IMG/VR virus record: IMGVR_UViG_3300025736_000078 | Span: 1-37,597 of that record | Strand: one strand, 5' to 3' | DNA length: 37,597 nt | Source of the DNA: a virus | Shown: positions 5,299 through 37,473 of the stretch, piece after piece | How the letters are laid out: every line of letters begins with the position of its first letter | Position numbering within the stretch: the stretch's first letter is position 1 | Made by a program: the position numbers and the translations under genes | Notes under the pieces: model-generated | Database searches by the model: none | What the model saw: the letters and a program-made list of their open reading frames with translations, nothing else | Told to the model about the DNA's origin: nothing

Positions 5299-7611
5299 TT
5301 ATAAATCCCTTAAAGTTTGTCGTAAATTTGAATTTGTATTTATGCCATCGATTAAAGCATCTATAACAAACTCATTCGGATTTGCTGATTTCCTTGCCGT
5401 AAGAGGAATCCCTGAATTGTTATTGATTATTATCTTTGAGGCGGCTCCGGTTACAGCGTCAGGAGTCGGAGAAGATGCTAATGCCCTGTAAATTCCAGAG
5501 GCATCGAATCCACCCCCACTTTTCATGGCATCTGAGACATATCCGTTCCCGAATATCTGATAGAACATATTCTTTGCGGCCATCTCCGCAAGGAACGAGA
5601 TAAATGACTGTAAAATTGAATCAAACATATTGTCCATAAAATCTGCAAAGCTACTTCCGTGTTGCATCAATTTATTAAAGGATGAATCAAATCCATCAAT
5701 AATATCTCTCTGTACGTTCTCGAACATCTTGTAAACTTGCGTGAAATCATCCATTACGGTTTTTGTTGATTGTCTCCAATGGGATGCCCATATATTAGAA
5801 ATATCTTCACCGCCTATGCTTCCTGCTTGTGCGTAAGCCGGTTCAGCCCCCGGGGAAGGCAACGTAGGTTCAGGGCTTCCTGTAACAACAGCAGATAGCA
5901 TACTAAGGAAGTTTGCAAGCTCAGGGGACACCTCTTTTAATTTACCCAATATGTTATCAAAATCAGAGATTGCTAAATCTGCCATACCGCCAATAAGACT
6001 TTTAGAGCCTTCCATGAATGAAGTAGTTGGGAATTCAAGCTTTCCCGTTTTGAGAAAATCAATCATGGTTGATAATTCTTCCATCTCTTGAGAGGTAAAG
6101 CCGCTCCAATTATTTTTAAGAATCAACCATCCTATACTGAAAATAGTTCCTATTTTTGCGAATCCAGTCCACATGGAATTTAATAAGTCTGTCCAGACAG
6201 CCTTCATAAGAAAAATTTTATTTTCCCAAACTATCCCTAGGTCATCAAGTAATACCGCAAATTTCCCGGTGAAATCGTTTGCTGTTAATCTCATAGCCTT
6301 AAACGCATTGCCCCAAGCCACTTGTAGCGCATAGAAACCTGCTACTGCGACAACAACGGGAGCAATAAGCCCTGAGAATCCTGCGGTGAGAAGTCCAATG
6401 GATTTAATCATAGTTGGAAGAAGTATCATTAACGGCCCGACAACAAGGGCAAGCCCACCGATAGCAGTCGTTGTTTTTATTATTGTCATAGCTAATTCAC
6501 TATTTTCTTTTACCCATGATTTAACTGCATCAATCACCGGAATAGCTTGGTCGGCAAAGGCTCTTATTGTTGGAACAAGCCCCCGGCCAATCTCTCTTGC
6601 TAAATCTTGTACGCCACGATAAACCCGTCCAAGCTGATGAAGGAATGCGGCCATCTGTTTCTCCACAACAGCTTTCATTGTACCGTCAGCCTCAGCGAGA
6701 CTTTGTGAATATTGCTGAAGTTGCTCTTTCCCATACTCGAATATTTTAATCTGACCGGCAATAGCCCTTCTGCCGAAAAGAATCTCGAAAACCATATTCT
6801 TGTAACGCTCAGAAGCGTTTCTTAACTGGAAATTAATGTTTCCCATAAGGTCAATAAATGGGCGCATCTCTCCTGTCGATGCATCATAAAGCTGAATTTC
6901 GAGAGCATGGATAAGGTCAATCATCTCCCGAGTAGGACTCATAAGGTTAGTGAATGACCGCCTGAGAGCAACACCGGCATAGGAACCTTTAATGCCGGCA
7001 TTCGCCATAACACCGAGCATTGCGGCTACATCTGAGAGGGAGTTATTCGACATATTTGCTGTTGAGGATACATACGACATTGCTTTATCCAAATCAGAGA
7101 ATACCTGATTGGATGTAATTACAGTTTTTACAAGGGTATCTGCGACACGATTCGATTTATCGAACGTGATATTGAAACCTCGCATAATATCAACGAGGCC
7201 TTCAGCCGCTTGGCCTACTTCAACAGTCATAGCTCTCGCCATGTTGTTTACCGAGGCAAACGACTGCATCTGCTCGGTTGCTTTGAGTCCGGCAGACCCG
7301 AGGAAGTAAAAGCCCCGTACTGTCTCTGTGGCGACTTTATTCAGGTCTTTAGACATCTTCTCAGCCATATTTGACATATCATCAAATTGCTGAGTCGTAA
7401 CATCCGAAACAGCCAGAGATTCACGGAGAGCTTTATCGAAAGAGCCAATTTCCTTTACTGCAACACCGGCAAATCCGGTAATGACAGCGCCAAGCCTCGT
7501 TACATCCATACCGAGCGCACGTACATCCGCAGATACTTGTCTTTTCCCTTTTACCCATCCCGTTAAATCAAATCCCAAACGAGCAACTATCGAACCAACA
7601 TTAAACGCCAT
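5299..7611 (-). CDS. Tail tape measure protein (TP901-type)
   Basis: A 770-residue tape measure protein that sets tail length and is ejected at infection. The N-terminal 300 residues match the phage minor tail TP901 core: repeated helical Ala/Gly-rich segments, FDKALRES, then TETVRGFYFLGSAGLKA and GVMANAGIKGSYAGVALRR. Two or three hydrophobic segments lie in the middle (about residues 380-440, including TIIKTTTAIGGLALVVGPLMILL). The C-terminus is less conserved. At about 0.15 nm per residue it predicts a tail of roughly 110-120 nm. The start is TAATG-coupled to the end of the T chaperone frame, as in lambda G-T-H. Confidence 0.95.
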   Translation of the reverse strand: MAFNVGSIVARLGFDLTGWVKGKRQVSADVRALGMDVTRLGAVITGFAGVAVKEIGSFDKALRESLAVSDVTTQQFDDMSNMAEKMSKDLNKVATETVRGFYFLGSAGLKATEQMQSFASVNNMARAMTVEVGQAAEGLVDIMRGFNITFDKSNRVADTLVKTVITSNQVFSDLDKAMSYVSSTANMSNNSLSDVAAMLGVMANAGIKGSYAGVALRRSFTNLMSPTREMIDLIHALEIQLYDASTGEMRPFIDLMGNINFQLRNASERYKNMVFEILFGRRAIAGQIKIFEYGKEQLQQYSQSLAEADGTMKAVVEKQMAAFLHQLGRVYRGVQDLAREIGRGLVPTIRAFADQAIPVIDAVKSWVKENSELAMTIIKTTTAIGGLALVVGPLMILLPTMIKSIGLLTAGFSGLIAPVVVAVAGFYALQVAWGNAFKAMRLTANDFTGKFAVLLDDLGIVWENKIFLMKAVWTDLLNSMWTGFAKIGTIFSIGWLILKNNWSGFTSQEMEELSTMIDFLKTGKLEFPTTSFMEGSKSLIGGMADLAISDFDNILGKLKEVSPELANFLSMLSAVVTGSPEPTLPSPGAEPAYAQAGSIGGEDISNIWASHWRQSTKTVMDDFTQVYKMFENVQRDIIDGFDSSFNKLMQHGSSFADFMDNMFDSILQSFISFLAEMAAKNMFYQIFGNGYVSDAMKSGGGFDASGIYRALASSPTPDAVTGAASKIIINNNSGIPLTARKSANPNEFVIDALIDGINTNSNLRQTLRDL

Positions 7612-8182
7612 TATCCTTTACCTTTCATCCCAAGCATAAACCATGTATCTTCTGACATTTCTTCTTTTGACTGGAACAATTCAAGCTGTGCAATAAAAGC
7701 ATTAAAGCCTGTTTCTGTTGAAAATCCTGCCCGTACCGCAGATGCGGTTTCGGCCATTCTCTGCCTTTTGATGGCCCCGGCTTCCGCAAGAAAAAAAGCA
7801 AAAAGCCGGGGGTCCATTGATAAAAGCTCGTCCATCGTAAACAAACCGGGAAAAGTAGAGGCTATGACTGAGAATCCTCTTACTTTTCCCCGAACACGTT
7901 TTTTGATGCAAAAGCCTGTATTTCTTCAGTAAATACTTCTGTTATCGCCTTTGTGAAAATACCGAGTTTTCTGATGTCCGTTTTTTTGAACACCTTTGGG
8001 TCAACATCGACCAGTTTTGCAATAACATCCGCAAGGTCACGTTTACTGTCTTTGACATGCGAAAGTTCGCCAATAACATCATTGGGAAGGGACTTAATGG
8101 TATAAACTTTACCGTCAAGTGTAAGCACGATAGGCTCGAACATTTCTTCTGCAAGCTTATCAATGTTCAGAATTTTAGACAT
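7611..8182 (-). CDS. Tail assembly chaperone GT fusion, made by -1 ribosomal frameshift
   Basis: Extended product of the upstream chaperone. Ribosomes read codons 1-95 of the G frame, slip back one base on A-AAA-AAC (7904-7898) and continue in the -1 frame to the stop at 7611, giving about 190 residues. The -1 frame is open from the slip site through 7611. Its T part contains FTMDELLSMDPRLFAFFLAEAG and AVRAGFSTETGF, with no good start site of its own (the first possible start is a TTG at 7844 lacking a ribosome site). Arrangement and position, between tail tube and tape measure, match lambda gpG/gpGT. The chaperone is expected to coat the tape measure protein during tail assembly and not to remain in the virion. 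Confidence 0.85.
7847..7904 (-). promoter_or_regulatory. Programmed -1 frameshift signal: AAAAAAC slip site plus stem-loop
   Basis: The heptamer A-AAA-AAC occupies 7904-7898 in the correct phase: codons TCA|AAA|AAC of the G frame. After a 7-nt spacer, an arm at 7890-7876 can pair with 7861-7848: nine base pairs (7890-7882 with 7848-7856), one bulged A at 7881, then five more pairs (7880-7876 with 7857-7861), leaving a 14-nt loop. Slippery heptamer, spacer and stem are all of the classical kind for tail chaperone frameshifting. Frameshift efficiency cannot be read from sequence. Confidence 0.88.
7880..8182 (-). CDS. Tail assembly chaperone G (unshifted product)
   Basis: A 100-residue mostly helical protein, the in-frame product that ends at 7880. 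It starts with ATG behind an AAGGAG site. Residues 14-35 (MFEPIVLTLDGKVYTIKSL) resemble the N-terminal strand pair of phage tail assembly chaperones, and the remainder is helical. It lies between the tail tube gene and the tape measure gene. Its last five codons overlap the frameshift signal, so most ribosomes should make this form and a minority the GT form. The stop codon lies inside the predicted downstream stem. Confidence 0.85.
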   Translation of the reverse strand: MSKILNIDKLAEEMFEPIVLTLDGKVYTIKSLPNDVIGELSHVKDSKRDLADVIAKLVDVDPKVFKKTDIRKLGIFTKAITEVFTEEIQAFASKNVFGEK

Positions 8183-8216: not shown

Positions 8217-8732
8217 TTAGATAGCACCTATATGCCATGTAAGTTTCGATGTGGAGTTCGGATATGATTTAAAAGTCGTCATATAAACTCTTTGGCCATC
8301 GTTATTATAGGCAAAATCGAAGCTCGGTTTCGGGTAGGACAGAGGAACAGTTAGCCAATAATCTTCTGAAGAAACTGCATTAGCGTGAATAGGCTTAATA
8401 ATAAGCTCTTTCGCAAGGCTGTCTGCTACAACTGCACTTCCTACCATGTTATCATAGACCGCTACGTTACCTGATTCTCCACCGGAATTGCTTCCACCGG
8501 GGATAATTGAGGCAAGGGCGGCCAAAGTGAGCCTTGTGAATGGTACATCGACTTCCATCGGCATCTGGCCGGTAATAACACAATCCACCGGGGTACTTCC
8601 GAAAGAGGCCTCAAATACTTCGGCTTCTGTTCCAGAGAAGCGAACTCCCACACTGTCATGGTATTCGCCTACTTTAGAACTGTTCCACCAAATTTCACAA
8701 TGACCCAAATCTCTTGTCGGGCCTAAAGGCAT
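8217..8732 (-). CDS. Major tail tube protein
   Basis: A 171-residue protein, the size and position of a siphophage tail tube subunit: directly upstream of the chaperone pair and downstream of the tail terminator. It has Gly/Ser-rich turns in the middle (GGSNSGGESG, about residues 79-88), a VFEASFGSTPVDCVITGQMPMEVDVPFTRLT core strand set and a C-terminal KLTWHI strand. No enzymatic motif is present. ATG start with an AAGGAG-like site. It should be one of the most abundant proteins in the particle and, with the capsid, is a candidate acceptor for the sugar enzymes encoded at 12.2-22.4 kb. Confidence 0.8.
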   Translation of the reverse strand: MPLGPTRDLGHCEIWWNSSKVGEYHDSVGVRFSGTEAEVFEASFGSTPVDCVITGQMPMEVDVPFTRLTLAALASIIPGGSNSGGESGNVAVYDNMVGSAVVADSLAKELIIKPIHANAVSSEDYWLTVPLSYPKPSFDFAYNNDGQRVYMTTFKSYPNSTSKLTWHIGAI

Positions 8733-8746
8733 GATTATTCTCCTTA

Positions 8747-9154
8747 TTAACCGTCCTGAGCAACGAGTTCAAGCCTAACCATAAGTTCCGGGTTATGCTT
8801 TTCATCATCACCAATATCATACGGTCTGCTTGCTAATATATTAACAATGTAAGTATCGCCACCAGAATAGGTTAGAGTTATTTGCTGTTTCCCATGTAAG
8901 GCGGTATGTACTGCTTCTGCGATGCTTCGGGCCGAGGGATAATCTGTGCCTCGAATCTTAACACGAAATACTTTCTGCACCAAGTCTGTTACGCCCGGTG
9001 AGGAATCAGGGACCGCATACAAATCTTCTTCAACAACAGCGCATAAAATAGGTGCGCCTTGGGGTCGCCTTCCCGGAAAAAGATTTGGCGTTAAGCCATA
9101 CATAGTGAGACTTGAGACGTTCGCCCCGATATACTCTGTCAACTCGTTAATCAT
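8747..9154 (-). CDS. Tail terminator-like protein (lambda U-like position)
   Basis: A 135-residue alpha/beta protein. It begins with an INELTEYIGANVSSLTMYGLTPNLFPGRRPQGAPILCAVVEE segment, then RVKIRGTDYPSARSIAEAVHTALHG, and ends with VRLELVAQDG. The pattern of N-terminal helix, PEGxP-type turn, strand with R-x-RG and a helix with A-x-A-x-xH is typical of siphophage minor capsid or tail-completion proteins that cap the tail tube. It overlaps the upstream gene by ATGA (9151-9154). It is placed just before the tail tube gene, as expected for the terminator ring protein. Family assignment is by pattern and gene order. Confidence 0.75.
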   Translation of the reverse strand: MINELTEYIGANVSSLTMYGLTPNLFPGRRPQGAPILCAVVEEDLYAVPDSSPGVTDLVQKVFRVKIRGTDYPSARSIAEAVHTALHGKQQITLTYSGGDTYIVNILASRPYDIGDDEKHNPELMVRLELVAQDG

Positions 9155-12200: not shown

Positions 12201-12896
12201 TTACACTCCTTGAATATATTTAACTAACTCATCGTATTTTATCTTTTTAAATACTTTTATGTGCGAATCAGGGTTACAGTTATATATTGGCGGTATATGG
12301 ATACCTTTACAGTGAGTATTTTGGAGTCGTTGGTAGTGCTTATTGAATAAGGTTGTATCAATCCCTATCCGGGTTCCTCGGGGAATATTCCTTAATTCAT
12401 CGGCACGGTAGTATGAGTCTTTTTCGTTCACACCTTCTTTGCATCCGTCAACTCCAAACAAAAATATTTTACTCGGTAAGCCGCTAATTAGTATAGGCAG
12501 GAGCATCGAAAGAGAGTTTATTCTATCGGCCCCAATAGGCTCATATGTAATAAATACCCGTTCTCTGAATTTGTCAAGAAAAACATTGCCTTTATATACG
12601 TAACGTATTGCCTCTATTGTACTTATTAACAGCCTATCCTCTCCCTCTGATAGAAATTTTTCTATATCTATTGCCTTTCTCACAAATTCAAGCGGAGATG
12701 TGCAGTCAATAATATCAAACCTCTTCCCGATTCGCCCTAGAAGGTTGGCCTCAAGAATATTAAAATTATTTATACTTGCAAAACAAATATCCTTCTCTCT
12801 AAACAATTCAATATGTTTTTCGAGTTCTTTTATTGATTTGCCATGCAGGAGAACGCATACAGGCCTATTGTTTATGAGCGCCCTTAATCTTTCCAT
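12201..12896 (-). CDS. DUF115/MptE-like Rossmann protein (putative glycan transferase)
   Basis: A 231-residue Rossmann-like protein. Residues 12-24 (PVCVLLHGKSIKE) form a beta-strand plus phosphate-loop-like turn, followed by LEKHIELFREKDICFASINNF and ILEANLLGRIGKRFDIIDC. This pattern is that of the DUF115/6-hydroxymethylpterin pyrophosphokinase MptE-like fold. The same fold occurs in Maf flagellin glycosylation proteins and is close to GT42 sialyltransferases. A later KIFLFGVDGC strand fits the second half of that fold. It overlaps the radical SAM gene by 32 nt. A second protein with this fold lies at the other end of the cluster (20937-22409). Confidence 0.65.
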   Translation of the reverse strand: MERLRALINNRPVCVLLHGKSIKELEKHIELFREKDICFASINNFNILEANLLGRIGKRFDIIDCTSPLEFVRKAIDIEKFLSEGEDRLLISTIEAIRYVYKGNVFLDKFRERVFITYEPIGADRINSLSMLLPILISGLPSKIFLFGVDGCKEGVNEKDSYYRADELRNIPRGTRIGIDTTLFNKHYQRLQNTHCKGIHIPPIYNCNPDSHIKVFKKIKYDELVKYIQGV

Positions 12897-14175
12897 TCTT
12901 TCTCCGATAAAAGTCCTCGTATGTGCCTTCGAGTATTTTTCTTTTAAGCTTTGTCTCTATAATATTAACCATTTCTCCTGAGACATTCTCCCCAAACTTA
13001 TCTTCGAGCATGTGAGTAAATCTCATTGTCGAATGATAGTCAATCCACGCCTTATCTCTAAAGGCAAGCACTTCTCTTGCCGAAACATGGTTTGTGGGTA
13101 AAGGCTGAAACTCATAAGAATATTGGGAATAGCCACTATAAGTTCTGGGGAGTTTCCATCTTTTCCATATGGCATATTTCTCAACCTCTGTCTTTGGATA
13201 AGCAACAACGCAGTAAAAGTTAGAGTATTCACAATTCAGCGCTATCGCAAAATCCAAAGTTTCGTGCATAGTTTTCATGTTATCTTCAGGAAATCCTAAC
13301 ATATAATTCCCGAGGACGTTTATGCCGGAGTCTTTAAGCATCTTTACTACATTTTCAATGTCATTGTTTGTGAAAGTACCTTTACTCATTGACTCTCTGA
13401 TTCCCTGATTCCCGGATTCTATTCCGAGGCATATCCAATTTATACCGGCTTTTCTCATAAGCGGATATATATCGAGTTTCCACATAGTATCAATTCTGCC
13501 GTATCCCCAAATATTAAGGCCGGTCATTCCATTGGATATTATTTCCTCACAGAATTTTTGGAGCCAGTTCTGATTAATAATAAACAACTCATCCATAATC
13601 TTTATGTGACGTACACCATTGTCGTACAGAACCTTGAGGTCACTTATAACCTCATTAACTCCACGCCTTTTATATTTCTCTCCATAATATCCTTTTATAG
13701 CACAGAATTTACATGAGTATGGACATGAGATTGATGTATGTAGTGTTCCGTAAGGTGAACGTCTCTCAAGTCCCCATGCTTGCCAATTATGGCATTGATA
13801 TTTTGATAAATCAAAAAGGTCCCATGCAGGAGTAATGTTTAGCGGAGAGAAGTTTAGTTTATTATGGACAGTAATATCTCCGTAAAGTGCCGAAGATGTT
13901 TTGGTAAATATTTTATTTATACCTTCCTGTTCCTGAATAAACGCAGAAGGATGCACCCCTGTTGGCCATATTTCTATTTTGTCGCACCCCATAAGCTTCC
14001 TGAGTTCATTTTTTTTTTCAACTGCCATGTCAAAAACTGTGACCTTATGACCTCTCTGCCGCAGATAACTCGCTCTCGTAGCCATCCAATGAGGCGGTTC
14101 TATTGCAGACAACATATTAAGGCTCTGATAGTTTTTAACCTTAGAGCTTGGCCGTATCAATCCGATTGTATCCAT
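12865..14175 (-). CDS. Radical SAM protein with degenerate B12-binding-type N-domain
   Basis: A 436-residue enzyme. The N-terminal 120 residues look like a cobalamin-binding-type Rossmann domain (IGLIRPSSK...WMATRASYLRQRGHKVTVFDM) but the B12-binding DxHxxG is absent. The radical SAM core starts with CPYSCKFCAI (C151, C155, C158), the CxxxCxxC motif that holds the [4Fe-4S] cluster, then WGYGRIDT, GLESGNQGIRESMSKG and GNYMLGFPEDN, all typical of the B12-type radical SAM superfamily. The substrate is unknown; such enzymes do methylations, epimerisations and ring changes. It overlaps the transketolase C gene by 19 nt. Confidence 0.85.
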   Translation of the reverse strand: MDTIGLIRPSSKVKNYQSLNMLSAIEPPHWMATRASYLRQRGHKVTVFDMAVEKKNELRKLMGCDKIEIWPTGVHPSAFIQEQEGINKIFTKTSSALYGDITVHNKLNFSPLNITPAWDLFDLSKYQCHNWQAWGLERRSPYGTLHTSISCPYSCKFCAIKGYYGEKYKRRGVNEVISDLKVLYDNGVRHIKIMDELFIINQNWLQKFCEEIISNGMTGLNIWGYGRIDTMWKLDIYPLMRKAGINWICLGIESGNQGIRESMSKGTFTNNDIENVVKMLKDSGINVLGNYMLGFPEDNMKTMHETLDFAIALNCEYSNFYCVVAYPKTEVEKYAIWKRWKLPRTYSGYSQYSYEFQPLPTNHVSAREVLAFRDKAWIDYHSTMRFTHMLEDKFGENVSGEMVNIIETKLKRKILEGTYEDFYRRKNGKIKGAHKQ

Positions 14176-15047
14176 TCGATTAAGCTCTCCGTGTCAAGAT
14201 GATGGTGCTTGAGAATGTTGTCTCTCCCACCGTAAACGTAATCATATCGGTTCGCTCCAAGGCAAGCGTAATGAATATCTTCATTGACACCGATTGCCTC
14301 GCAAACAGAGCCACACAAACCTTCATAGCAATGCTCGTCAATAACATAGACTTGTTTATCGTCAACCATATCGACAATAGTCTTGGCAGAAAATGGAAGT
14401 TTAAATATTTCTATGACTCCCACATTCTTATGCTTTGCTATCTCCAGAGCCTTGTGAACCATAGCACCGGTTGTAATAATGACCTTTTTGACCCCTTTTT
14501 TATGTTCTATAATACCGCTTTTAAAGGGATGCCTATCTTCATATTCAATATCCGGCAACTCTTTTCTATCAAGCCGAATATACGTTGGGCTTGCTTGCCG
14601 AAGAGAATTAACTGCAAGCCAAGAGGCCATCTCGTTCGATGAGCAGTTATAGACTGTCATGTTTGGCAAAAGTTTCATTATTGCCATATCTTCAACCGCA
14701 TGATGAGTTGGTCCTGAATCAGCATAAGAGAAACCTGAGCCAACACCAACAATAGTGATTGGAATGTTCATAAGGCTTGCAACCACTTTAACCTGCTCGT
14801 AACAGCGTAAAGAGACGAAGGGCATGATAGCATACACGAAGGGATGAAAACCCTCTAATGCCATACCACAGGCCGTCAGAATCGCAGATTGCTCCGCTAT
14901 TCCGGTGTTAATGTAACGATGTGGGAATTCTCTCTTGAAATTATCGAGCGCAGGAGCGCCCATGTCGGCAGATACGACAGCAATTTCATTATGGTTTTCC
15001 TCTGCCAACTCGAATACTCTTTGCCAAAAGGCATCTCTCATAGTCAT
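14157..15047 (-). CDS. Transketolase, C-terminal (pyrimidine-binding) subunit
   Basis: A 296-residue second half of a split transketolase. The ATG at 15047 is chosen because it shares a base with the stop of the N-terminal subunit (TAATG) and has AAAGGA upstream; the in-frame TTG at 15068 is less likely. Motifs: VVSADMGAPALDNF; INTGIAEQSAI, whose Glu (about residue 52) activates thiamine diphosphate; SYADSGPTHHAVEDMAIM; and SPTYIRLDRKELP with the conserved substrate-phosphate Arg region. The C-terminal domain is present. With the neighbouring subunit it forms a complete TPP enzyme that moves a two-carbon ketol unit. Alternatives are DXS-like or other ketol transfer in unusual sugar synthesis. 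Confidence 0.9.
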   Translation of the reverse strand: MTMRDAFWQRVFELAEENHNEIAVVSADMGAPALDNFKREFPHRYINTGIAEQSAILTACGMALEGFHPFVYAIMPFVSLRCYEQVKVVASLMNIPITIVGVGSGFSYADSGPTHHAVEDMAIMKLLPNMTVYNCSSNEMASWLAVNSLRQASPTYIRLDRKELPDIEYEDRHPFKSGIIEHKKGVKKVIITTGAMVHKALEIAKHKNVGVIEIFKLPFSAKTIVDMVDDKQVYVIDEHCYEGLCGSVCEAIGVNEDIHYACLGANRYDYVYGGRDNILKHHHLDTESLIEWIQSD

Positions 15048-15874
15048 TATTCTATTCCTTTCAGGCAAGCAAAGGCTTTCTTAGCATCATCTCCTGATGG
15101 AGCCATGCCATGCCATAGCGGAGCGTTTTCAAGGAAATTAACACCATTACCTTTAACTGTATGACAAATAAACACAGTAGGTCCAGATGTTCTCCCTCTT
15201 GTCCTTAATAATTTTGATGATATATCTTCAATATTATGCCCATCAATATCCTGTGTTTGCCACCCAAAGGCTTTAAACTTTGCACCTAAATCAAGCAATT
15301 GGCACATATCCTCAGTAAAGTCAGTAGCTCCGAGCCGGTTTCTATCAACGAGAGCAACGAGGTTATTAAGATTCTGATGTTTTGCGAGTGTGGCTGACTC
15401 CCATATTGAACCTTCGTAGCATTCAGCATCACCGAGAAGGCAGAACACCATAGGTAACTTCCGCTTCAGTTTCAGAGCTAATGCCATTCCTGCGGCTACT
15501 CCGAGGCCATGCCCGAGACTTCCTGTTGTAAGCTCTACTCCCGGGACCGTTTTTTGTAAATGGACCGCAAAGTGACCATCTTTTTGATTAAATGTTTTAA
15601 GCCAATCTTTCGGGAAAAAGCCCATATCCGCAAGTGTTGTATAGAGTATTGGGCTTGCTTGCCCTTTCGATAAAATAAATCTGTCTCTACCTTCTGCTTC
15701 CGGTTCGAGCGGATTGACATTTAATATACCCCCATGATAAAGAGCAACGAGGATTTCTGCGATACTGAACGAGCTATTTACGTGGCCTGTTCCGGCATCG
15801 CAACACATTTTGAGTGTATCATACTTTATCTGCTCTACTTTCTTACTGAGCAGAGCTATGGTCTTTTCTGACAT
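15047..15874 (-). CDS. Transketolase, N-terminal (TPP-binding) subunit
   Basis: A 275-residue first half of a split transketolase. The ATG at 15874 is preferred over the TTG at 15892 because a GGGGAAGGGG ribosome site lies just upstream. Key motifs are present: AGTGHVNSSFS with the conserved His (about residue 31); RDRFILSKGQASPILYTTL; TTGSLGHGLGVAAG; the TPP motif starting GDAECYEGSIWE (about 148) and ending VDRN; and HTVKGNGVNFLEN before WHG. Nothing essential appears lost, so an active enzyme is predicted. Split transketolases are common in bacterial polysaccharide gene clusters, but rare in a phage late operon. Confidence 0.92.
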   Translation of the reverse strand: MSEKTIALLSKKVEQIKYDTLKMCCDAGTGHVNSSFSIAEILVALYHGGILNVNPLEPEAEGRDRFILSKGQASPILYTTLADMGFFPKDWLKTFNQKDGHFAVHLQKTVPGVELTTGSLGHGLGVAAGMALALKLKRKLPMVFCLLGDAECYEGSIWESATLAKHQNLNNLVALVDRNRLGATDFTEDMCQLLDLGAKFKAFGWQTQDIDGHNIEDISSKLLRTRGRTSGPTVFICHTVKGNGVNFLENAPLWHGMAPSGDDAKKAFACLKGIE

Positions 15875-16214
15875 CTTGAACCCCTTCCCCAACGAGAAGA
15901 TTAATTTTATTTTTTAATGTAATACGTTTCGCATTTACTTTCCGTATTTGTATAGCCCTGAGTCCGACTTCCAGAGGATTATCATCGAGTTCACCCTTAC
16001 GTACCGCAGATTCGAGGTCCCATATCATTGCGTTTATTGCGGTCATTTCATTGAGATAATCAGAGAGGTCTATCTCAGGATGAAGGGATTGTAAATTGGC
16101 ATATCCTTGCCTAAAAAGGTCATGCTCTTTAATGTTCTCTGGCTCACCTATTCTCCGTTCCTTTAAGTGCGCTATAGAAAACCTATCAATAATATCTCCG
16201 GCATCTCTTTTCAT
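15843..16214 (-). CDS. Small helical protein of sugar gene clusters, unknown function
   Basis: A 123-residue, highly charged, all-helical protein. The N-terminus (MKRDAGDIIDRFSIAHLKERRIG), a central AINAMIWDLESAVRKGELDD and a C-terminal RAIQIRKVNAKRITLKNKINLLVGEG segment form a pattern I have seen beside glycosyltransferase and nucleotide-sugar genes, without a known function. No enzyme motif. It overlaps the cupin gene by ATGA (16211-16214) and the transketolase N gene by 32 nt, so it is firmly in the same transcript. It may be an assembly or regulatory partner. The function is not known. Confidence 0.6.
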   Translation of the reverse strand: MKRDAGDIIDRFSIAHLKERRIGEPENIKEHDLFRQGYANLQSLHPEIDLSDYLNEMTAINAMIWDLESAVRKGELDDNPLEVGLRAIQIRKVNAKRITLKNKINLLVGEGVQDVRKDHSSAQ

Positions 16215-16525
16215 AATTCAATCCTTATTGAGTCGTCTGGATGAGGGGTCGATATTGAAATCAATGTCAGCCCTGCCTCTCCTGCTCTCAGCCGGTGAGC
16301 CACATCAGGTTTAATGTGGATAGATACTCCTGCCGCATAACGCTCAGATAGCGTGTCCCACTCAATTATCAATGAGCCATTGAGTACATATAATGTCTCA
16401 TCTTTTTTTTCATGCTTATGGAGACTCGTAAAGTCCCCGGGGTTTATGATGATTATCTTGCCAATATACAAATCATTCTCGGCAATCCAAATCTCACACC
16501 CCCACCTTTTCATTGTTGTTTTCAT
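16211..16525 (-). CDS. Single-domain cupin (sugar isomerase/epimerase-like)
   Basis: A 104-residue single cupin barrel. The start is the ATG at 16525, which shares a base with the stop of the radical SAM gene (TAATG). Motif 1 is PGDFTSLHKHEKKDETLYVLNGSLII, with metal-ligand His/His/Glu in HKHEKKDE. Motif 2 is the IKPDVAHRL stretch with the last His. The resemblance is to the cupin domain of mannose-6-phosphate isomerase and small sugar-handling cupins (W-G-x-EIWI start, ISTPHPDD end). Likely role: isomerisation or epimerisation of a phosphosugar or nucleotide sugar in the pathway, or a metal-dependent sensor. Reaction not determined. Confidence 0.8.
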   Translation of the reverse strand: MKTTMKRWGCEIWIAENDLYIGKIIIINPGDFTSLHKHEKKDETLYVLNGSLIIEWDTLSERYAAGVSIHIKPDVAHRLRAGEAGLTLISISTPHPDDSIRIEL

Positions 16526-17616
16526 TAGATAAAGTTCCGACACATGGGGTCGGCTCCTGTGAAAAGCTGTTCGCATTGTTCGCAATATACGCCAAAAGTA
16601 CAGCGAGTCTTGCATTTACTCGGGGTTCCACCAAAGATAAGCTTCTGATGTGCTTCTTTCCCCCAATAAGACTTAATTCTTGAAGGTTCCGGGTAATGAC
16701 TTCCAAGTTCGTATTCTGGTTGTCTTCTTTGGTCAACACAATAGTAAACCTTCCCGTCAGCGCATAACTGGATACAGAGTGCGGCTCCGTAGCAGTTTGT
16801 GAAGTTCTTTGCAGGATGGAAGTTCTTATCGAATTTATGAATGACCGTAAAGACCCGGAAAGAGTCTGTTTCGAGTTCATGGCATTTCTCCATCTGCTCT
16901 TTAATCTTTTCGACATTGACATTGGCAAGTTTCCCGGAAAGGTCTGCACCCATACCCTGATGTCGGAAATCCATAGGCCGGGCATGAAAATCCCTAACAC
17001 CCAAATCCTTTGCCAATTTACAAGCTTCGTATATTTCATGTTGATTTATAGAGGAAATTAAGAACTTAAAAGCTATGTCAGTGTCAGAGTTCTTCGCTGT
17101 GAGCTTTTTTATGCTACTTATAACGCTGTCATACATATCAACGCCTTTGAGTGCTAAGTATGTTTCTTTTGTCGCAGAATCAAGGCTTATACCTATCCAT
17201 CGGCACAGAACAGAAGCATCAATCAATTTATCAGTAAATGCTATACCATTTGTTGCAATTGATGATTCCATACCTTTGAGAGATGTGTGTACCAAGGCAT
17301 CACTTAACTTAGTGTGTAGCGTAGGCTCTCCCCCACCCCCGAAACAAATTGCCTTCACTCCCCATTCTCCGAGGAATCCGATAAGGTTCATAATGTGTTC
17401 ATCGGTCATTCTCTGAGGTCGCCCATCGTAATTATGGAGATACCGGCTTGCATTACAGTGCTTGCAATTTAGGTTGCATGCATGAATAGGGTCAAGGCTT
17501 GCCTCGATTGGCGGCAAAAACTCTTTGTTTATAATAGCCTTATAATGGTCTTGGTACAGAAGTCCTTTCCAAGAATTAAAGCTGTTGAACTGGTTTTCTT
17601 TTACCCACTCTTTCAT
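16525..17616 (-). CDS. Radical SAM protein with SPASM-type C-terminus
   Basis: A 363-residue radical SAM enzyme. The core motif is CNLNCKHC (C47, C51, C54), then the GGGGEPTLH SAM-binding loop (about 93-101) and SLDSATKETY. The C-terminus has two further cysteine groups (NCYGAALCIQLC...YYC and CKTRC...YCEQCEQ...MC), consistent with SPASM-type auxiliary iron-sulfur clusters. Enzymes of this build modify peptides (thioether bonds, epimers) or sugars and alcohols (dehydrogenation). In this sugar context an alcohol/sugar oxidation is plausible, but a peptide or protein substrate cannot be ruled out. It overlaps the upstream glycosyltransferase by 41 nt. Confidence 0.9.
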   Translation of the reverse strand: MKEWVKENQFNSFNSWKGLLYQDHYKAIINKEFLPPIEASLDPIHACNLNCKHCNASRYLHNYDGRPQRMTDEHIMNLIGFLGEWGVKAICFGGGGEPTLHTKLSDALVHTSLKGMESSIATNGIAFTDKLIDASVLCRWIGISLDSATKETYLALKGVDMYDSVISSIKKLTAKNSDTDIAFKFLISSINQHEIYEACKLAKDLGVRDFHARPMDFRHQGMGADLSGKLANVNVEKIKEQMEKCHELETDSFRVFTVIHKFDKNFHPAKNFTNCYGAALCIQLCADGKVYYCVDQRRQPEYELGSHYPEPSRIKSYWGKEAHQKLIFGGTPSKCKTRCTFGVYCEQCEQLFTGADPMCRNFI

Positions 17617-18370
17617 GGATTTTTTCTCCCAATAAGGTTACGTCTGTTTTAAAGTATTCTGCAAAGTTCTCTACCGCATGTTTACTATATTTCTTAGCGA
17701 TTCTCCCAACATTTTCAGCAATCTTATCATTTGGGACACCTTCTGTGCGGTGAGTTTTTGTGTGAATTTTAATATTAAGCAAAGGGCAATACCGATGAAT
17801 TGCATTATACAATCTTGCCAAATAGATGTCGGCTCCGTGAGCCGGGTACTGTTTGGGGAGTATGAAATTTACTGCCTCACATGCTTCTCTTGTGATAATT
17901 GGGAACCATCCCCATAACTTGCCCTTAGCTTCCTTTATTGAGGGCTTATTCGATGAAGTATCAATGGCAAATGCACAGCATATACGGTCAGATTTACCAA
18001 TAAGATACTTTTCTATTCCTTCAATCACAAGTTTATCCCAATCTTTTGTTATCATAATTACATCATCACCCATAACCCAAAAATAATCACCATTCAACAG
18101 TCCTTCTCGCCATAGCCAATTATAATACATATCTGATATATTCTCATTCCTTCCCCGGGAGACTATTCTGATGTCGATAGCTGTATATTGAGCTTGATAT
18201 TCAAACAGTGATTTTCTCGATACTATATCGTCATTATCTATAACTAATATTATCTCGAATGAGAAGAAATCTTTTGCGGTTTGGTTCACGCTGTTAAGAA
18301 ATCTTCTCACCAGTTCATGCCGGTTCCGGGTGGGGATAATAATAGATATTATTTTCTTTTGGCTATCCAT
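17576..18370 (-). CDS. Glycosyltransferase family 2-like protein (GT-A fold)
   Basis: A 264-residue GT-A fold protein. The N-terminal strand IISIIIPTRNRHELVRRFLNS is the classic GT2 start, followed by ILVIDNDDIV (about 41-50) and FWVMGDDVIMIT (GDD 101-103), which supplies the metal-binding acidic pair. No transmembrane segments, so it is a soluble enzyme that transfers a sugar from a nucleotide donor. The acceptor is unknown. It overlaps the methyltransferase gene by 22 nt and the radical SAM gene by 41 nt. Confidence 0.85.
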   Translation of the reverse strand: MDSQKKIISIIIPTRNRHELVRRFLNSVNQTAKDFFSFEIILVIDNDDIVSRKSLFEYQAQYTAIDIRIVSRGRNENISDMYYNWLWREGLLNGDYFWVMGDDVIMITKDWDKLVIEGIEKYLIGKSDRICCAFAIDTSSNKPSIKEAKGKLWGWFPIITREACEAVNFILPKQYPAHGADIYLARLYNAIHRYCPLLNIKIHTKTHRTEGVPNDKIAENVGRIAKKYSKHAVENFAEYFKTDVTLLGEKIHERVGKRKPVQQL

Positions 18371-18990
18371 GTGGCCCTGTGATGCTTTTTGTATTCCTTG
18401 GAAGGAATCTGTTTAACTACCTCAAACCCGTTTGCGCTCAGGAGCGCCCTGAGATATTTCTTCGTAGGTTTCGTAAGGAAGCGCCATTTGCCACCATGCC
18501 GTTCTTCAAGAAGTGCCGGTTCCGCATGAGGGTTGAAAATAGTTTCAATAACCAAGGTTTCTTCGCACATATCACAAAGTACCTTAACTATTTTTGCATA
18601 GTCAGTTTTCGGAAATTTGTGGATAACCCCTAAGCACATGACAATCTGAAAAGGCTTTGATGTAAATGACGTTGATAACGAATACGTACCGCAAGCGATT
18701 GCCACGCTCTGTCTCTCTGACATTATCCTTGTTATTGCCGAAGCATCTTTCCTTTCTTCAATAGCGGTAGCCATTGCACCCCTGAAGGCGAATCTCAATG
18801 CCATAAGTCCAACATGAGCGCCAATATCGACAAGGGTTTTCCCGTCCACATCAAGTTGTTCGCAAAACTGATTCCATTTAAGGTCGCGGTGAACAACGAG
18901 GTCGAAACTTCTCGGCTCAAAACCGCCCTTCTCTTTCATAACTTCATGGAAGGCTTCTACGGATAAATCTGCGCTTTGAGTCTGTTCCAT
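18349..18990 (-). CDS. Class I SAM-dependent methyltransferase
   Basis: A 213-residue Rossmann-fold methyltransferase. Motif I is TLVDIGAHVGLMALRFAFRGA (about 53-73), followed by the acidic end of strand 2 (TAIEERKDA) and motif IV-like FQIVMCLGVIHKF (about 113-125). The C-terminal half contains RFLTKPTKKYLRALLSANGFEVV, typical of small-molecule methyltransferases. In this setting it probably methylates a sugar or sugar-linked group. ATG start with GGGAG upstream; 2 nt after the stop of the preceding gene. Confidence 0.85.
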   Translation of the reverse strand: MEQTQSADLSVEAFHEVMKEKGGFEPRSFDLVVHRDLKWNQFCEQLDVDGKTLVDIGAHVGLMALRFAFRGAMATAIEERKDASAITRIMSERQSVAIACGTYSLSTSFTSKPFQIVMCLGVIHKFPKTDYAKIVKVLCDMCEETLVIETIFNPHAEPALLEERHGGKWRFLTKPTKKYLRALLSANGFEVVKQIPSKEYKKHHRATWIAKRK

Positions 18991-18992
18991 TG

Positions 18993-19682
18993 TTACTCTC
19001 CCTTATTTACAGTTTTAAAACTCATACCCCATGTAAGATTCTTTCTTTTTCGCATACTATATGTCTGAATATCTCGGCTTTTATGGATTCTATTGTGTCG
19101 ATGCGTTTCATCTTCAGGGACTCCTGTGCATGGATGATGGTGAATAAGAGTGGGGCCTCTACCAGTCCATGCTTTATCAACAATTCTTGCATAATCCTCA
19201 AGTTCTTCGTCAATATAAAGACATTTGTATTCAGGACAAAAAACATGATTATTAGGGAATCTTTGTATGAATTCCTTCCCGATTGCTCCAAATGCAAGCC
19301 GGTTGTCGGTATTTGGGATATTTTTCTGATGAATACCAACAACTCCATCAAAATCCTTAATAAAAAATTTGAAAGTCTGCCCAATAAGTCTCAAGCAGTT
19401 ATGTTCTATTTCGACATCATCATTAAGGTAAACAAATACATCACCATTAAAATTATGTTCAAGATAATAATTCCAAAAGGTAGGAGCAGTATATTTCTGT
19501 TTATACATTATGTGATTAATAAAATCATCTCTGTATTTTTCCCCCATTTTCAACCATTCATCCCTGATAGAATAAAAGATATTGAGATGGACACCCGGAA
19601 TCCAAGCCTTACGTATCGACTCAATACATTTACCAAGCTTTTCTTCTCTCTTGTATGTAGGAATTACTATTTCAATTTTCAT
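18993..19682 (-). CDS. Glycosyltransferase family 2-like protein, second copy type
   Basis: A 229-residue GT-A protein, clearly different from the one at 17576-18370. It starts MKIEIVIPTYKREEKLGKCI, carries the acidic motif VYLNDDVEI (NDD 87-89) and a later HHHPCTG segment. No membrane segment. The missing long C-terminal region and compact size suggest a soluble enzyme acting on a small or protein acceptor. The start is the ATG at 19682, 27 nt after the previous gene, one of the few small gaps in the cluster. Confidence 0.8.
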   Translation of the reverse strand: MKIEIVIPTYKREEKLGKCIESIRKAWIPGVHLNIFYSIRDEWLKMGEKYRDDFINHIMYKQKYTAPTFWNYYLEHNFNGDVFVYLNDDVEIEHNCLRLIGQTFKFFIKDFDGVVGIHQKNIPNTDNRLAFGAIGKEFIQRFPNNHVFCPEYKCLYIDEELEDYARIVDKAWTGRGPTLIHHHPCTGVPEDETHRHNRIHKSRDIQTYSMRKRKNLTWGMSFKTVNKGE

Positions 19683-19709
19683 TTTCTCTCTTAGTCTGAA
19701 GATGTTTGT

Positions 19710-20246
19710 TCATTTTATAAACAATATCCAAGGTGAGTTGTCTCTTATTGGTTTAATTTTAAACTCTTCCATAAAATGCTTTATTGCGAGTGAGGCTTCC
19801 CATGTTTTTTTAGGATACCAGTCATGGCATAATATCAAACCACCTTCCGAGGTATGTCCCCAAATCCATTCCAGTGTTTTGAGTGTCGGGAAATAATGGT
19901 CGAGGTCTACATGGGAAAAGGAAAGAACTAAACCTGACTCAGTTTCCAAACTCTCTGGAAGAAAGCCTTTATGGATGATAAAATTATCTTTTTTTGATTC
20001 TTTTAATCTCATAGAAAATCTATCTACATCCATTTTCATACTACCCTTTTCGTAGTGGCATTCCCCTTTCGGGTCAGTATCTTGGGGGGTTGGCTCTGCA
20101 AATCCCTCAAAGCTGTCAAAGGCATGGGCTGTTTTATTCTGTATTTTAGCCTCTCTAAGTATCCGCATGAAGTTATTTCCGGCATGAACACCAAATTCCG
20201 CAAAATCCCCATCAATATCTTTTACTGTTTTTAAATACTTAATCAC
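19710..20246 (-). CDS. TylF/macrocin-type O-methyltransferase
   Basis: A 178-residue methyltransferase of the TylF type. Signature blocks: DGDFAEFGVHAGNN (motif I, residues 12-25), AHAFDSFEGF (strand 2), FIIHKGFLPESL and the acidic-loop block SFSHVDLDHYFPTLKTLEWI. These metal-dependent enzymes methylate sugar hydroxyls (for example in macrocin/tylosin) and also appear in surface polysaccharide clusters. It overlaps the preceding fusion gene by 8 nt. This supports an O-methylated sugar as the product. Confidence 0.88.
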   Translation of the reverse strand: MIKYLKTVKDIDGDFAEFGVHAGNNFMRILREAKIQNKTAHAFDSFEGFAEPTPQDTDPKGECHYEKGSMKMDVDRFSMRLKESKKDNFIIHKGFLPESLETESGLVLSFSHVDLDHYFPTLKTLEWIWGHTSEGGLILCHDWYPKKTWEASLAIKHFMEEFKIKPIRDNSPWILFIK

Positions 20247-20940
20247 TTAAACCCCCTACTGTCCTTCGTTCGATGTCTATACCATCATATTTATAATTAT
20301 ATATCTCTATACAACTAACATCAGTAATTGCTGTGAATTTATGGAAGAATCCTACTGGTATTTCCCGGGGCGGTTGACCTGCCTTGATAGTAATAGTCCT
20401 CTTTGTATCATCCTTCCACCAAAAATCTATTTTAAGAGTGCCTTTAATCACATGGAATATATTGGTTTTTTGATTGTGCTTATGCTCTGAGCAGTAGCCG
20501 CCCTTCTTAATATCGAGATAATGTACTGTTGAGGTTGAATTCCTAAATATCTCAACGGTTGTACCCCATACTTTTTTCTCTGGTTTACAATCCCACTGAG
20601 GGACCCAATCCGCTCGGCTACTGAATTTTGTTGTGGGAGATGCACAATCAGCATAAACCATCACATCAACCGTGCGTTTTAATTTATGAGCTACCGCAAT
20701 CCTATGCCCACCATTTTCAATCCACCGGCACTTTTTACAGTAATATAATGGCTCAAATTTCTTTTCATCGAAGTTATCTACTATGCTATTGACTTTCTTT
20801 GTCCACCTTTTATTCTGAACATCTTTAGTTCTAAAAGAAGCATCGACAGCCTGTTCATCGAGACTTACATTTGTTACAAGGGTATCTGCCGGATATTCAT
20901 AAAGAGATGAGCCTTCTTTATATCTTATGATATGTTTCAT
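20239..20940 (-). CDS. ParB-like N-domain fused to a cupin
   Basis: A 233-residue two-domain protein. Residues 1-100 contain an IENGGHRIAVAHKL block (75-88), the core motif of the ParB/sulfiredoxin fold (DG-xHR-xxA...), preceded by IVDNFDEKKFEPL. Residues 125-225 form a cupin: KGGYCSEHKHNQKTNIFHVIKGTLKIDFWW with His ligands at 153 and 155. ParB-fold proteins use nucleotides (CTPase; free serine kinase SerK), so a metabolite kinase joined to a cupin is one possibility; a sensor is another. It overlaps the upstream gene by ATGA. I do not know a characterised protein with this pairing. Confidence 0.75.
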   Translation of the reverse strand: MKHIIRYKEGSSLYEYPADTLVTNVSLDEQAVDASFRTKDVQNKRWTKKVNSIVDNFDEKKFEPLYYCKKCRWIENGGHRIAVAHKLKRTVDVMVYADCASPTTKFSSRADWVPQWDCKPEKKVWGTTVEIFRNSTSTVHYLDIKKGGYCSEHKHNQKTNIFHVIKGTLKIDFWWKDDTKRTITIKAGQPPREIPVGFFHKFTAITDVSCIEIYNYKYDGIDIERRTVGGLSD

Positions 20941-22409
20941 TGGCCTACCTCTCGCTTTAGATGTCGGCTTGCTTGGTAGAATTCAATAACAGGTTCTCCA
21001 AGTTCTGACATTGAATCGAATATCTGACAATACGAATCTGGAAGTTTAATAAAATTAATATTGCTCTTATTGCGGTCTAACACTGTCTTGAGATTATGTT
21101 GCTCCATTGCAATTCTGGCAAAAGAGTTTTTATTCTCATTTATCCATTCCTCTACAAATCTATGAGTCTTGTTATTGTTTTTTAAGAAGATAGCTCCACT
21201 GAGCAGTTCTATTCCGCTCTGCCTAGGACTCTTTTTGTATTGACTCCAATCGACAATACAGACAGATATATCGGCTTTTGTTTTTAGAAGGAAGTCTGGC
21301 ATTTGGAAAACAGCGCTGTCGGCATCGAGCCAGACAATGTTTCTGCCGGGGTGCTTATCGAGCATTTCCTTCAGGAAGGTTGCCTTATAATAAGTATTTT
21401 TCTTCCATCCCCCGAGGCTGTCGATTCCTTGAATATCATAATCAAGATTAAAATTATTGAGGGAACCCATGAGACGATGAGCTTCTTTCTCATATCCGGT
21501 ATTTTTTGTATAATATGAGACAAAGAGAGGCTTTTCTTCTACCTTTATTTTTTTCTCATTCAGTACATTTTTTACCTCATCAAACTTAAAACACTTCAAG
21601 GCTGATTCAGGATTTAGATTAATTACCTTTATTCCTCTTTTCTCCCAAGCAGGAGCGACTTCATGTAGATAGTCCCGGAATGTTTTATAGACACCTTCGC
21701 TCTGTTTGTCAGGGTATCCATCATGGAACCATCTTTGATTGCCCTTACCGTCACCTTTCATATCGAATCCGAGAAGGTATATTTCCTTTGCCCCGAGTTC
21801 TATTGCGAGATTAATAGATGCGTGGCCGGAGTTCGTTCCACAAATGCCGAGGTCCGGGACCGTAAAAATATTATCCGGGAAACAGAAAGTTCCGTTATTA
21901 AGCCATACCTGATAGCCCCCAAAGTTTTCATATCTAATCCGGGCTTCCTCTCCCAATTTGCCTCTTACGAGCCATCCCCATACCCTTGTGTCCATAGAAA
22001 AAAGGATTGTGGGGTCATACTTCTCTATTGCCCTATTGATGCCAATAGAAAGCTCACCTTCGAGAAGCTTAAAGTTGAAGTCTTTCAGGCTTGGGCCGCC
22101 CCCGACTATAAAAACTCGTTGATTTGCCCATGAATTTCGAGGGACAGCATCAAAAAAGATTTTCGATTTTGCGAGATTGTAATTTAATATTTCCTGATTA
22201 GGACTTAGATTAGGATTCTGTGCCAGATTAGGCCATTGCCTGATACGGTCAAGACGGGTTTTTTCTTTGATTTTATTGAGAACACGCTTGTCGGACATTG
22301 TAAGAATGGGGGATTGCTTTTCTGCGGCATCTTTGCTTTTTAATTGGTTTTCTTTGATTCTTTTATTCTGTAAAACTTTCTTAGTGTCGGACATGCGAAC
22401 GATGGTCAT
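20937..22409 (-). CDS. Fusion of DUF115/Maf-like domain and a second glycosyltransferase domain
   Basis: A 490-residue protein. Residues 1-85 are a basic helical linker. Residues 97-275 are DUF115/MptE-like: VFIVGGGPSLKDFNF (about 99-113), IGINRAIEKYDPTILFSMD and ELGAKEIYLLGFDMKGDG, also close to GT42 sialyltransferases. Residues 293-485 form a GT-A-like domain with NIVWLDADSAVFQMPDFL (DAD 362-364) and SGAIFLKNN. The start is ATG with AAAGGATTCACA. It is the first gene after the capsid gene. DUF115 is the catalytic part of Maf proteins that glycosylate flagellin Ser/Thr, so a direct transfer of sugar onto a phage structural protein is a reasonable but untested idea. Confidence 0.75.
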   Translation of the reverse strand: MTIVRMSDTKKVLQNKRIKENQLKSKDAAEKQSPILTMSDKRVLNKIKEKTRLDRIRQWPNLAQNPNLSPNQEILNYNLAKSKIFFDAVPRNSWANQRVFIVGGGPSLKDFNFKLLEGELSIGINRAIEKYDPTILFSMDTRVWGWLVRGKLGEEARIRYENFGGYQVWLNNGTFCFPDNIFTVPDLGICGTNSGHASINLAIELGAKEIYLLGFDMKGDGKGNQRWFHDGYPDKQSEGVYKTFRDYLHEVAPAWEKRGIKVINLNPESALKCFKFDEVKNVLNEKKIKVEEKPLFVSYYTKNTGYEKEAHRLMGSLNNFNLDYDIQGIDSLGGWKKNTYYKATFLKEMLDKHPGRNIVWLDADSAVFQMPDFLLKTKADISVCIVDWSQYKKSPRQSGIELLSGAIFLKNNNKTHRFVEEWINENKNSFARIAMEQHNLKTVLDRNKSNINFIKLPDSYCQIFDSMSELGEPVIEFYQASRHLKREVGQ

Positions 22410-29436: not shown

Positions 29437-30128
29437 TATTTTACCTCATCGGTTATTACTTCAACATCCATACCAAAAGCATCCATCAAAGATTCTTTTC
29501 TTAAATCATCCCTCATTAACCGGCCTCGGACATACTCAGTTGGAGAGTAAAGGGACACAACCTTATCTTTTTCAGAGATAAACCGCAGGGGGTCGATGAG
29601 TAACTTCATGTTTTCTTTTGAGAATTCAGCATTAAGCAGTTCATAAGCCTCGGGATGTGAGTCTTTAATGCCCTTTCCTTTTTTTATTATCTTTTGTTTT
29701 TTTAGTGACTCTTTATCCTCATCTTTTTTGTTAAACAGGCCGACATCAAGCATCTCGTCCTTATGGTATTTGATATACTTGTCCTGAATGTTTTGAGGAA
29801 GGCTTTTTGCAATATTGAGCATCCCAGTCCTGATGTGGGTATTGCTTCTTTTCTGATGTTTATAAAAATTCAGGATTATAATATATCCATCATCAAACGC
29901 CATTTTTTTGTCTTTAATAAAAGCGTTTATTATCTCCCTTATTTTCTTTTCGGGAATGGATGTGTCGTAAGAAATGCGCTCGGCAGTAATCTCAAATATG
30001 CCAAGTATGTTTGACATAGAGCTTGTAAGTAGGTTAATAAACACTAATTTGCCATCAACGTCAAGCTTCTTTATATACCCATCTTCCCAAAAGAAAGTAT
30101 TTACATATCGATTCGTACCCTTCATCAT
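29436..30128 (-). CDS. Replication initiator: DnaD-type N-domain, DnaA domain I-like C-domain
   Basis: A 230-residue protein. Residues 1-115 are a winged-helix replisome organiser: NTFFWEDGYIKKLDVDGKLVFINLLTSSMSNILGIFEI, then a second helix block and DGYIIILNFYKHQK, typical of phage DnaD-like N-domains. A basic linker (ESLKKQKIIKKGKG) follows. Residues 160-225 match the pattern of DnaA domain I: LIDPLRFISEKDKVVSLYSPTEYVRGRLM...LMDAFGMDVEVI. DnaA domain I recruits helicase and other partners. So the protein probably binds the origin with the front and recruits the helicase machinery with the back. It overlaps the DnaC-like gene by ATGA. Confidence 0.8.
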   Translation of the reverse strand: MMKGTNRYVNTFFWEDGYIKKLDVDGKLVFINLLTSSMSNILGIFEITAERISYDTSIPEKKIREIINAFIKDKKMAFDDGYIIILNFYKHQKRSNTHIRTGMLNIAKSLPQNIQDKYIKYHKDEMLDVGLFNKKDEDKESLKKQKIIKKGKGIKDSHPEAYELLNAEFSKENMKLLIDPLRFISEKDKVVSLYSPTEYVRGRLMRDDLRKESLMDAFGMDVEVITDEVK

Positions 30129-30952
30129 CCCCCCATTTCGATAGTTGCGTATTCTTTTATTTTCTCTCCGAAAACGTCACCGAAGTCATTGTCTATTTTA
30201 TCCTTGGAAAATGGGGTCGTTATAATGGTCTGCCGATGCTCAAAATACCGGGATGAAATAATTTGATAAAGAATATCTCGCCTGTGTTCTGTTAGTTTTA
30301 TTGAGCCAATATCTTCGAGTACAAGTAAATCATAATCGACAATTCTGTTTGTTATGATGGCGTAATCTTCATCGTTTGCAATTTTCTGCTGAATGAGTGA
30401 GTATAATTGAGGCACAGACTGGAACCAACATTTATAAGGCCGGTTCTTACCGTATTTTAAGAGAAGCCCTATTGCTAAATGAGTCCTGTCTTTCCCGTTA
30501 ATTATCAGACATTCGTTGGCTACAACTCTTGTTTTTACTTTTGAGGTATGGTCAAATGTGAGGTTTTCGAGAGTCATTGAATGTAAACCTGACGGGATTC
30601 CCATTTTTTCACAGAGTTCGGGGATACCCGTACTTTCAGTTATTTTCCCTTCGTAATTCTGTTCCTCTAATCGCCATCTCCTAATAACTGCCTGATAGTC
30701 CTGACATTTACTGTTCGCACAGAACCATCTTGGCCACCCTATTTTACTGTCAGGGTCGTTGATTGTATCTTCATACATCTCTTGTCCACATACGGTGCAT
30801 TTAGGCTTTTCACCCCACGCAAGAGACGCAACCAACTCTGCCCTACCCTCACATATTACCCCGATGTTCTTTCTCACATCGTCAGGGTGTTTTTTTATAA
30901 AATTATTTATAAGTTTTATGTATTTCCGTGAGAAATACTCATGCTTTTTCAT
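30125..30952 (-). CDS. DnaC-like helicase loader ATPase with zinc site and degenerate P-loop
   Basis: A 275-residue protein; the ATG at 30952 is chosen for its AGGAAGGAAG site (a TTG or ATG 21 nt upstream is weaker). Residues 52-83 have a zinc-binding set (CTVCG...CANSKC). The ATPase part has INGKDRTHLAIGLLLKYG (about 152-168) where loaders normally have GxxGxGKTHLA: the usual GKT is DRT. The Walker B strand YDLLVLEDIG (about 207-216) and sensor-1-like IITTPFSKDKI are present. The DNA was read again to confirm the P-loop change. It still looks like a DnaC/IstB-family loader; ATP binding may be weak or different. Confidence 0.85.
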   Translation of the reverse strand: MKKHEYFSRKYIKLINNFIKKHPDDVRKNIGVICEGRAELVASLAWGEKPKCTVCGQEMYEDTINDPDSKIGWPRWFCANSKCQDYQAVIRRWRLEEQNYEGKITESTGIPELCEKMGIPSGLHSMTLENLTFDHTSKVKTRVVANECLIINGKDRTHLAIGLLLKYGKNRPYKCWFQSVPQLYSLIQQKIANDEDYAIITNRIVDYDLLVLEDIGSIKLTEHRRDILYQIISSRYFEHRQTIITTPFSKDKIDNDFGDVFGEKIKEYATIEMGG

Positions 30953-31097
30953 TATCTTCCTTCCTACATTCAACCATTATCTGAAATTGAGTGAGCTTAT
31001 TAATAACATAATCTATTTCATAAAGTTCTATTATAACCACACTTGAATTATGGGTTATAAAAACATGCTTGTCATTAAATGACTCGACTTTAATCAT
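30939..31097 (-). CDS. Small 52-residue hypothetical protein
   Basis: A short gene between the nuclease and helicase loader genes. ATG at 31097 overlaps the nuclease stop (ATGA), and the stop at 30939 overlaps the start of the loader gene, so the gene is fixed in place by both ends. The protein starts MIKVESFNDKHVFITHNSSV and ends VECRKEDNEKA, with a small beta domain in the first half and no known motif. It may be a small replication or regulatory partner. Without the overlaps it would be easy to miss. Confidence 0.65.
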   Translation of the reverse strand: MIKVESFNDKHVFITHNSSVVIIELYEIDYVINKLTQFQIMVECRKEDNEKA

Positions 31098-37383: not shown

Positions 37384-37397
37384 AGGAAACTGGGGAT

Positions 37398-37469
37398 ATG
37401 TTATTTATAATTTGTGCTATATGCTATATAATCTTTTTACACTTTCATTCCAAAAATATAAAGGGATAA
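37398..37469 (+). CDS. Possible 23-residue membrane peptide
   Basis: A very short frame, MLFIICAICYIIFLHFHSKN then IKG, almost entirely a transmembrane segment with a basic end. A GGGGAT site precedes the ATG; the gene sits 14 nt after the previous stop and 4 nt before the next start. Small membrane peptides are common in phage early regions, but a frame of this length could arise by chance. Confidence 0.4.
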   Translation: MLFIICAICYIIFLHFHSKNIKG

Positions 37470-37473
37470 AAAA

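Follow-up and report, generated by a model that had tools for sequence, protein, structure and literature searches.

Organization of the tail locus

The window (the whole stretch of DNA analyzed here, a virus record of 37,597 bases) carries tail genes on its minus strand in the order tail tube, G, T, and tape measure (Table 1). The identity of the tape measure gene is secure. Distant relatives of the tail tube protein occur in phages of Paenibacillus, Bacillus, Pseudomonas, Stenotrophomonas, Klebsiella, Escherichia, and Salmonella. The probable tail terminator or head-tail connector gene next to it matches the PF12691 tail terminator family at 7.7e-4, under its cut-off.

Table 1 Features of the tail chaperone locus (window coordinates)
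Feature	Position	Strand	Evidence and remarks
Tail tape measure protein	5299..7611	-	TIGR01760 (5.8e-57), PF10145 (2.9e-36), PHROG tape measure families
T segment, -1 frame, 95 codons and stop	7611..7898	-	Reading frame and codon usage
Stimulatory hairpin, 14 bp, bulged A at 7880	7848..7890	-	Sequence and folding
G stop TAA	7880..7882	-	Within the 5' arm; last A of TAA is the bulge
G, 100-aa tail assembly chaperone, unshifted product	7880..8182	-	ORF, G profile, place between tube and tape measure
7-nt spacer GTGTTCG	7891..7897	-	Sequence
Slippery heptamer A_AAA_AAC	7898..7904	-	In phase with G codons 93-95; sequence and codon phase
Tail tube (major tail) protein	8217..8732	-	Relatives annotated as Ig-domain protein or major tail protein
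Probable tail terminator or head-tail connector protein	8747..9154	-	PF12691 and PHROG minor head and connector

On the minus strand, G ends with the codons GCA TCA AAA AAC GTG TTC GGG GAA AAG TAA, and the first base of the heptamer lies 25 nt from the end of the gene. The hairpin that follows is built from a 5' arm at 7890-7876 (10 bp, the bulged A, then 4 bp), a 14-nt loop at 7875-7862, and a 3' arm at 7861-7848. An earlier note on this DNA had described the site as an in-phase A_AAA_AAC followed by a 7-nt spacer and a bulged 14-bp stem, and this anatomy was confirmed base for base. The note was also right that the G stop is buried in the stem, TAA at 7882-7880 falling in the 5' arm, and that the junction comes after Asn95, the 95 codons up to that point ending with the heptamer. 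As it had claimed, the -1 frame stays open as far as the tape measure gene. The stop of T and the tape-measure ATG share a single base, at 7611. Conceptual translation of the GT fusion gives a protein of 190 aa.

Sequence signals in G and T

G has no near relatives in the viral_contigs, genome_contigs, or phages sets, no Pfam or PHROG match at 0.001, and no NCBIfam match at 0.1; its single-sequence structure model is poor (pLDDT 56.5) and retrieved no PDB entry at E<=0.001. When 46 non-redundant G proteins from relatives were built into a profile, this G came top of 390 stretches (E=4e-4) and was the only one above threshold, a weak match in that pairwise identity was 13-24% in an 8-sequence alignment.

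T looks coding by codon usage, because its score of 0.238 was reached by none of 1100 off-frame stretches (off-frame mean -0.074); in-frame stretches, taken as 96-codon pieces of 24 window genes, averaged 0.226. Profile and homology searches detected no sequence relative of T: the profile of 45 T segments from relatives missed it (E=3.4, rank 5 of 390 stretches). To the eye, T resembled its counterparts in SSU5-type and Rhizobium phages, but the profile test gave no support for this likeness. T segments diverge strongly, and relatedness of T is not a defining feature of the G/GT class.

The hairpin compared with chance expectation

The 63 nt 3' of the heptamer fold at -19.9 kcal/mol (z -2.74), a value equaled or bettered by 4 of 200 dinucleotide shuffles; when a 45-nt frame was scanned at spacers of 4-9, z was -5.2 with 60 shuffles and -4.4 with 100. 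Across the 45 minus-strand genes of the window there are 82 in-phase X_XXY_YYZ heptamers, four of them A_AAA_AAC, and the one in G ranks first for downstream structure (-19.5; runner-up -14.7). Structure as good was found at 4 of 3921 sampled in-frame positions. Only two of the 82 heptamers have a -1 frame open for at least 60 codons—the site in G and one in the gene at 30125-30973, where the open -1 frame enters the next, overlapping gene. Stimulatory structures generally begin 5-8 nt past the heptamer (PMC4066793), and the hairpin here, which starts 7 nt past it, falls inside that range; structures of this kind are frequent, not required, in the G/GT class.

Two further ideas about the hairpin were not supported. 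The longest ungapped pairing of the loop with the next 45 nt was only 4 bp, too little to argue for a loop pseudoknot. Nor did strong hairpins appear to offset the weak A-site codon AAC relative to the shifty AAG: among 37 sequence clusters of tube-related loci, median hairpin z was -1.7 for AAC clusters (n = 9, window left out) and -1.0 for AAG clusters (n = 16; Mann-Whitney p=0.69).

The same layout in related loci

A tube-profile scan of viral_contigs yielded 135 confirmed tube relatives, and 80 of these loci were used. Two lacked a G ORF, and the other 78 reduced to 68 distinct G-T regions. A -1 extension of 85-130 codons was present in 62 of the 68, whereas four have a +1 extension in that size range; for the six loci without a -1 extension, the ORF picker possibly chose wrongly. 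Within the overlap, 46 of the 62 extended loci have an in-phase X_XXY_YYZ heptamer (A_AAA_AAC in 13), and 16, among them SSU5-like loci, have none. Five of the 37 sequence clusters take in the 13 A_AAA_AAC loci, KLEB27-1, Unity, and the window. Eleven named phages were also compared, ten recovered by tube searches and Tadhana by the tape measure search. All 11 have a G-like ORF followed by a T frame and a tape measure gene; in each, the -1 frame continues through the G stop, staying open for 110-144 codons, and nine of them carry an in-phase heptamer. Searches of viral_contigs with the tape measure, tip protein, capsid, and terminase returned this virus alone.

Among the relatives, G proteins belong to PHROGs 893 and 18210, and T segments to PHROGs 1131 and 18850. 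These four families are listed without a known function; judged by place and layout, they are very likely tail assembly chaperones.

The survey also turned up sites of other composition. Several loci (L088, L094, L097, L028, L030, L032, and L054) have hairpins of -24 to -29 kcal/mol after an in-phase G_GGA_AAG or A_AAC_CCT; the latter, which is outside the usual efficient slip motifs, was seen in several clusters. The SSU5-like loci (L012, L013, L034, L072, L074, L075, L077, L078, L083, and L090-L093) keep the -1 extension with no X_XXY_YYZ in the overlap, which measures 13 nt in most and 37 nt in L013. In SSU5 and similar loci, the slip site must be something other than X_XXY_YYZ.

Comparison with known systems

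The locus resembles the G/GT pair of lambda, in which the heptamer is G_GGA_AAG: a pair ahead of the tape measure gene, a short and a -1-extended product, a heptamer near the 3' end of G, and a T reached through the shift. It differs in having A_AAA_AAC, and then a strong hairpin containing the G stop. Other parallels are the Bacillus phage KLEB27-1 and the Paenibacillus phage Unity, which share a related tube protein, the same gene order, an in-phase A_AAA_AAC, and a T whose -1 frame stays open until just short of the tape measure gene; the Unity record annotates a joined CDS for a tail assembly protein. In KLEB27-1 and most of its IMG/VR kin (the Bacillus-type cluster), the hairpin starts 7-8 nt past the heptamer, as it does here. 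On the other hand, KLEB27-1 and Unity have 40 nt rather than 25 between the heptamer and the point where the G stop ends, their stem is shorter, has an internal loop, and is of different sequence, and the downstream fold of Unity is weak (z -0.4). An uncultivated IMG/VR locus, L022, likewise has A_AAA_AAC followed by a hairpin (13 bp) that encloses the G stop, although there the stop sits within the loop, the fold used puts the start of the stem 4 nt past the heptamer, and the two stems differ in sequence.

The heptamer itself has been proposed for chaperone genes of several other viruses—Acinetobacter phage Loki and phage IME_AB3 (PMC5313236), Caulobacter phage phiCbK and four of its five relatives (PMC3556154), and the haloarchaeal virus HCTV-2 (PMC5009743)—and is given as "possibly" the slip site in Paenibacillus phage Dragolir (PMC6003738). 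The portions of these reports that deal with the sites of Loki, the phiCbK group, Dragolir, and HCTV-2 make no mention of a downstream hairpin.

A probable programmed frameshift and its alternatives

Taken together, the gene order, the codon usage of T, the G profile match, and the same -1 layout in relatives support the reading of the earlier note that this is a tail chaperone GT gene, and we regard it as very probable that the site directs programmed -1 ribosomal frameshifting of the lambda G/GT type. On the other side of the balance stand the miss of T by the T profile, the absence of family matches for G and its poor structure model, and the low shiftiness of A_AAA_AAC in E. coli together with the lower tolerance of bacterial ribosomes for such re-pairing. 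It is an ordinary G/GT site, a device well known in tailed phages, here in a new bacterial or archaeal virus.

Three other explanations were weighed. T might be translated independently, as a small gene starting within the -1 frame (ATG 7835, TTG 7844, or ATG 7817), perhaps coupled to the G stop; T frames are often annotated as their own genes in relatives, and ATG 7835 would give a 74-aa frame with good codon usage (0.263). Against this, no Shine-Dalgarno-like sequence precedes any of these three starts, whereas G and the tube gene have AAGGAG ahead of theirs. ATG 7835 sits 45 nt past the G stop, just behind the hairpin. The open -1 frame also extends back over the heptamer, and a separate gene would give no reason for a heptamer and hairpin at exactly the right spacing. 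We therefore consider a separate T gene quite improbable, and the statement of the earlier note that T lacks a good start of its own is a fair one. Its stronger form, that T can be reached only by shifting, agrees with the first starts in the frame but is slightly overstated, since a weak AAGG lies upstream of ATG 7757; a start there could at most yield a shortened C-terminal piece of T.

The remaining explanations both turn on the run of six A. A sequencing or assembly error in that run could have broken a single gene into G and T; the run is represented in one metagenomic contig, and none of six contigs of the same virus that were checked (99.9-100% identical) covers the slip site. Against this, the same split is found at the same place in 62 of the 68 distinct related loci, and here the stop lies within a hairpin at canonical spacing, so we give a split by error hardly any credence. 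The frame could also be changed by RNA polymerase slipping on the A run rather than by the ribosome. Polymerase slippage usually requires longer runs, however, and it would account neither for the hairpin at ribosomal spacing nor for the phase of the heptamer, and we judge it equally far-fetched. A programmed ribosomal frameshift remains the reading that we adopt.

Proposed operation of the site

We infer that the shift occurs, how often it does so, and what G and GT each do. Most ribosomes would read G to its TAA and release the 100-aa chaperone, while a minority would be paused by the hairpin with the P site on AAA and the A site on AAC. The two tRNAs would then each slip back by one base, pairing anew with AAA and AAA, and the ribosome would continue in the -1 frame to give GT. 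A minority shift likewise makes GT in lambda, the rest being G, at a ratio given as 30:1 in the section of PMC5009743 that treats it. By analogy with lambda, binding of the tape measure protein would fall to G and recruitment of the tail tube subunit to the T part, so that the G:GT ratio would matter for tail assembly. Systems of the G/GT class characteristically make the fusion at a low, fixed ratio and leave it out of the virion.

The choice of heptamer may bear on that ratio. A_AAA_AAC is described, in the part of PMC5009743 concerned with E. coli, as far less shift-prone than A_AAA_AAG, and re-pairing of the AAC-to-AAA type is less tolerated by bacterial than by eukaryotic ribosomes (PMC4066793). 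Such low shiftiness, as seen in E. coli, would suit a low share of GT or call for a strong hairpin. The G stop in the stem, its last base forming the bulge, could conceivably set termination and shifting in competition: the hairpin would slow arrival at the stop, and the G:GT ratio would be set by hairpin melting and not by A_AAA_AAC alone, given host ribosomes that accept AAC-to-AAA re-pairing. This is a speculative and, in our estimate, unlikely elaboration.

For annotation, the frameshift reading likely gives the right names to two genes that the family libraries searched leave unnamed. It adds a clean example of A_AAA_AAC with a hairpin, and suggests a function for the four PHROG families of unknown function.

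Other features of the window

Between the head and tail genes, positions 12201-22409 hold 13 ORFs on the same strand. Pfam matches among the ten that were scanned include two radical SAM proteins, a two-part transketolase, and two family 2 glycosyltransferases, with weak methyltransferase and sugar-related matches besides; the block looks like a phage-borne cassette for surface sugars or modification. Three contigs of the same virus (L007, L099, and L100) are nearly identical to the window and end inside the cassette, at 20414 and 19401; base 20414 is where two of them stop. The cassette possibly differs from genome to genome. L100 is without about 527 bases of the window (36945-37471), and both L098 and L100 extend beyond the window end.
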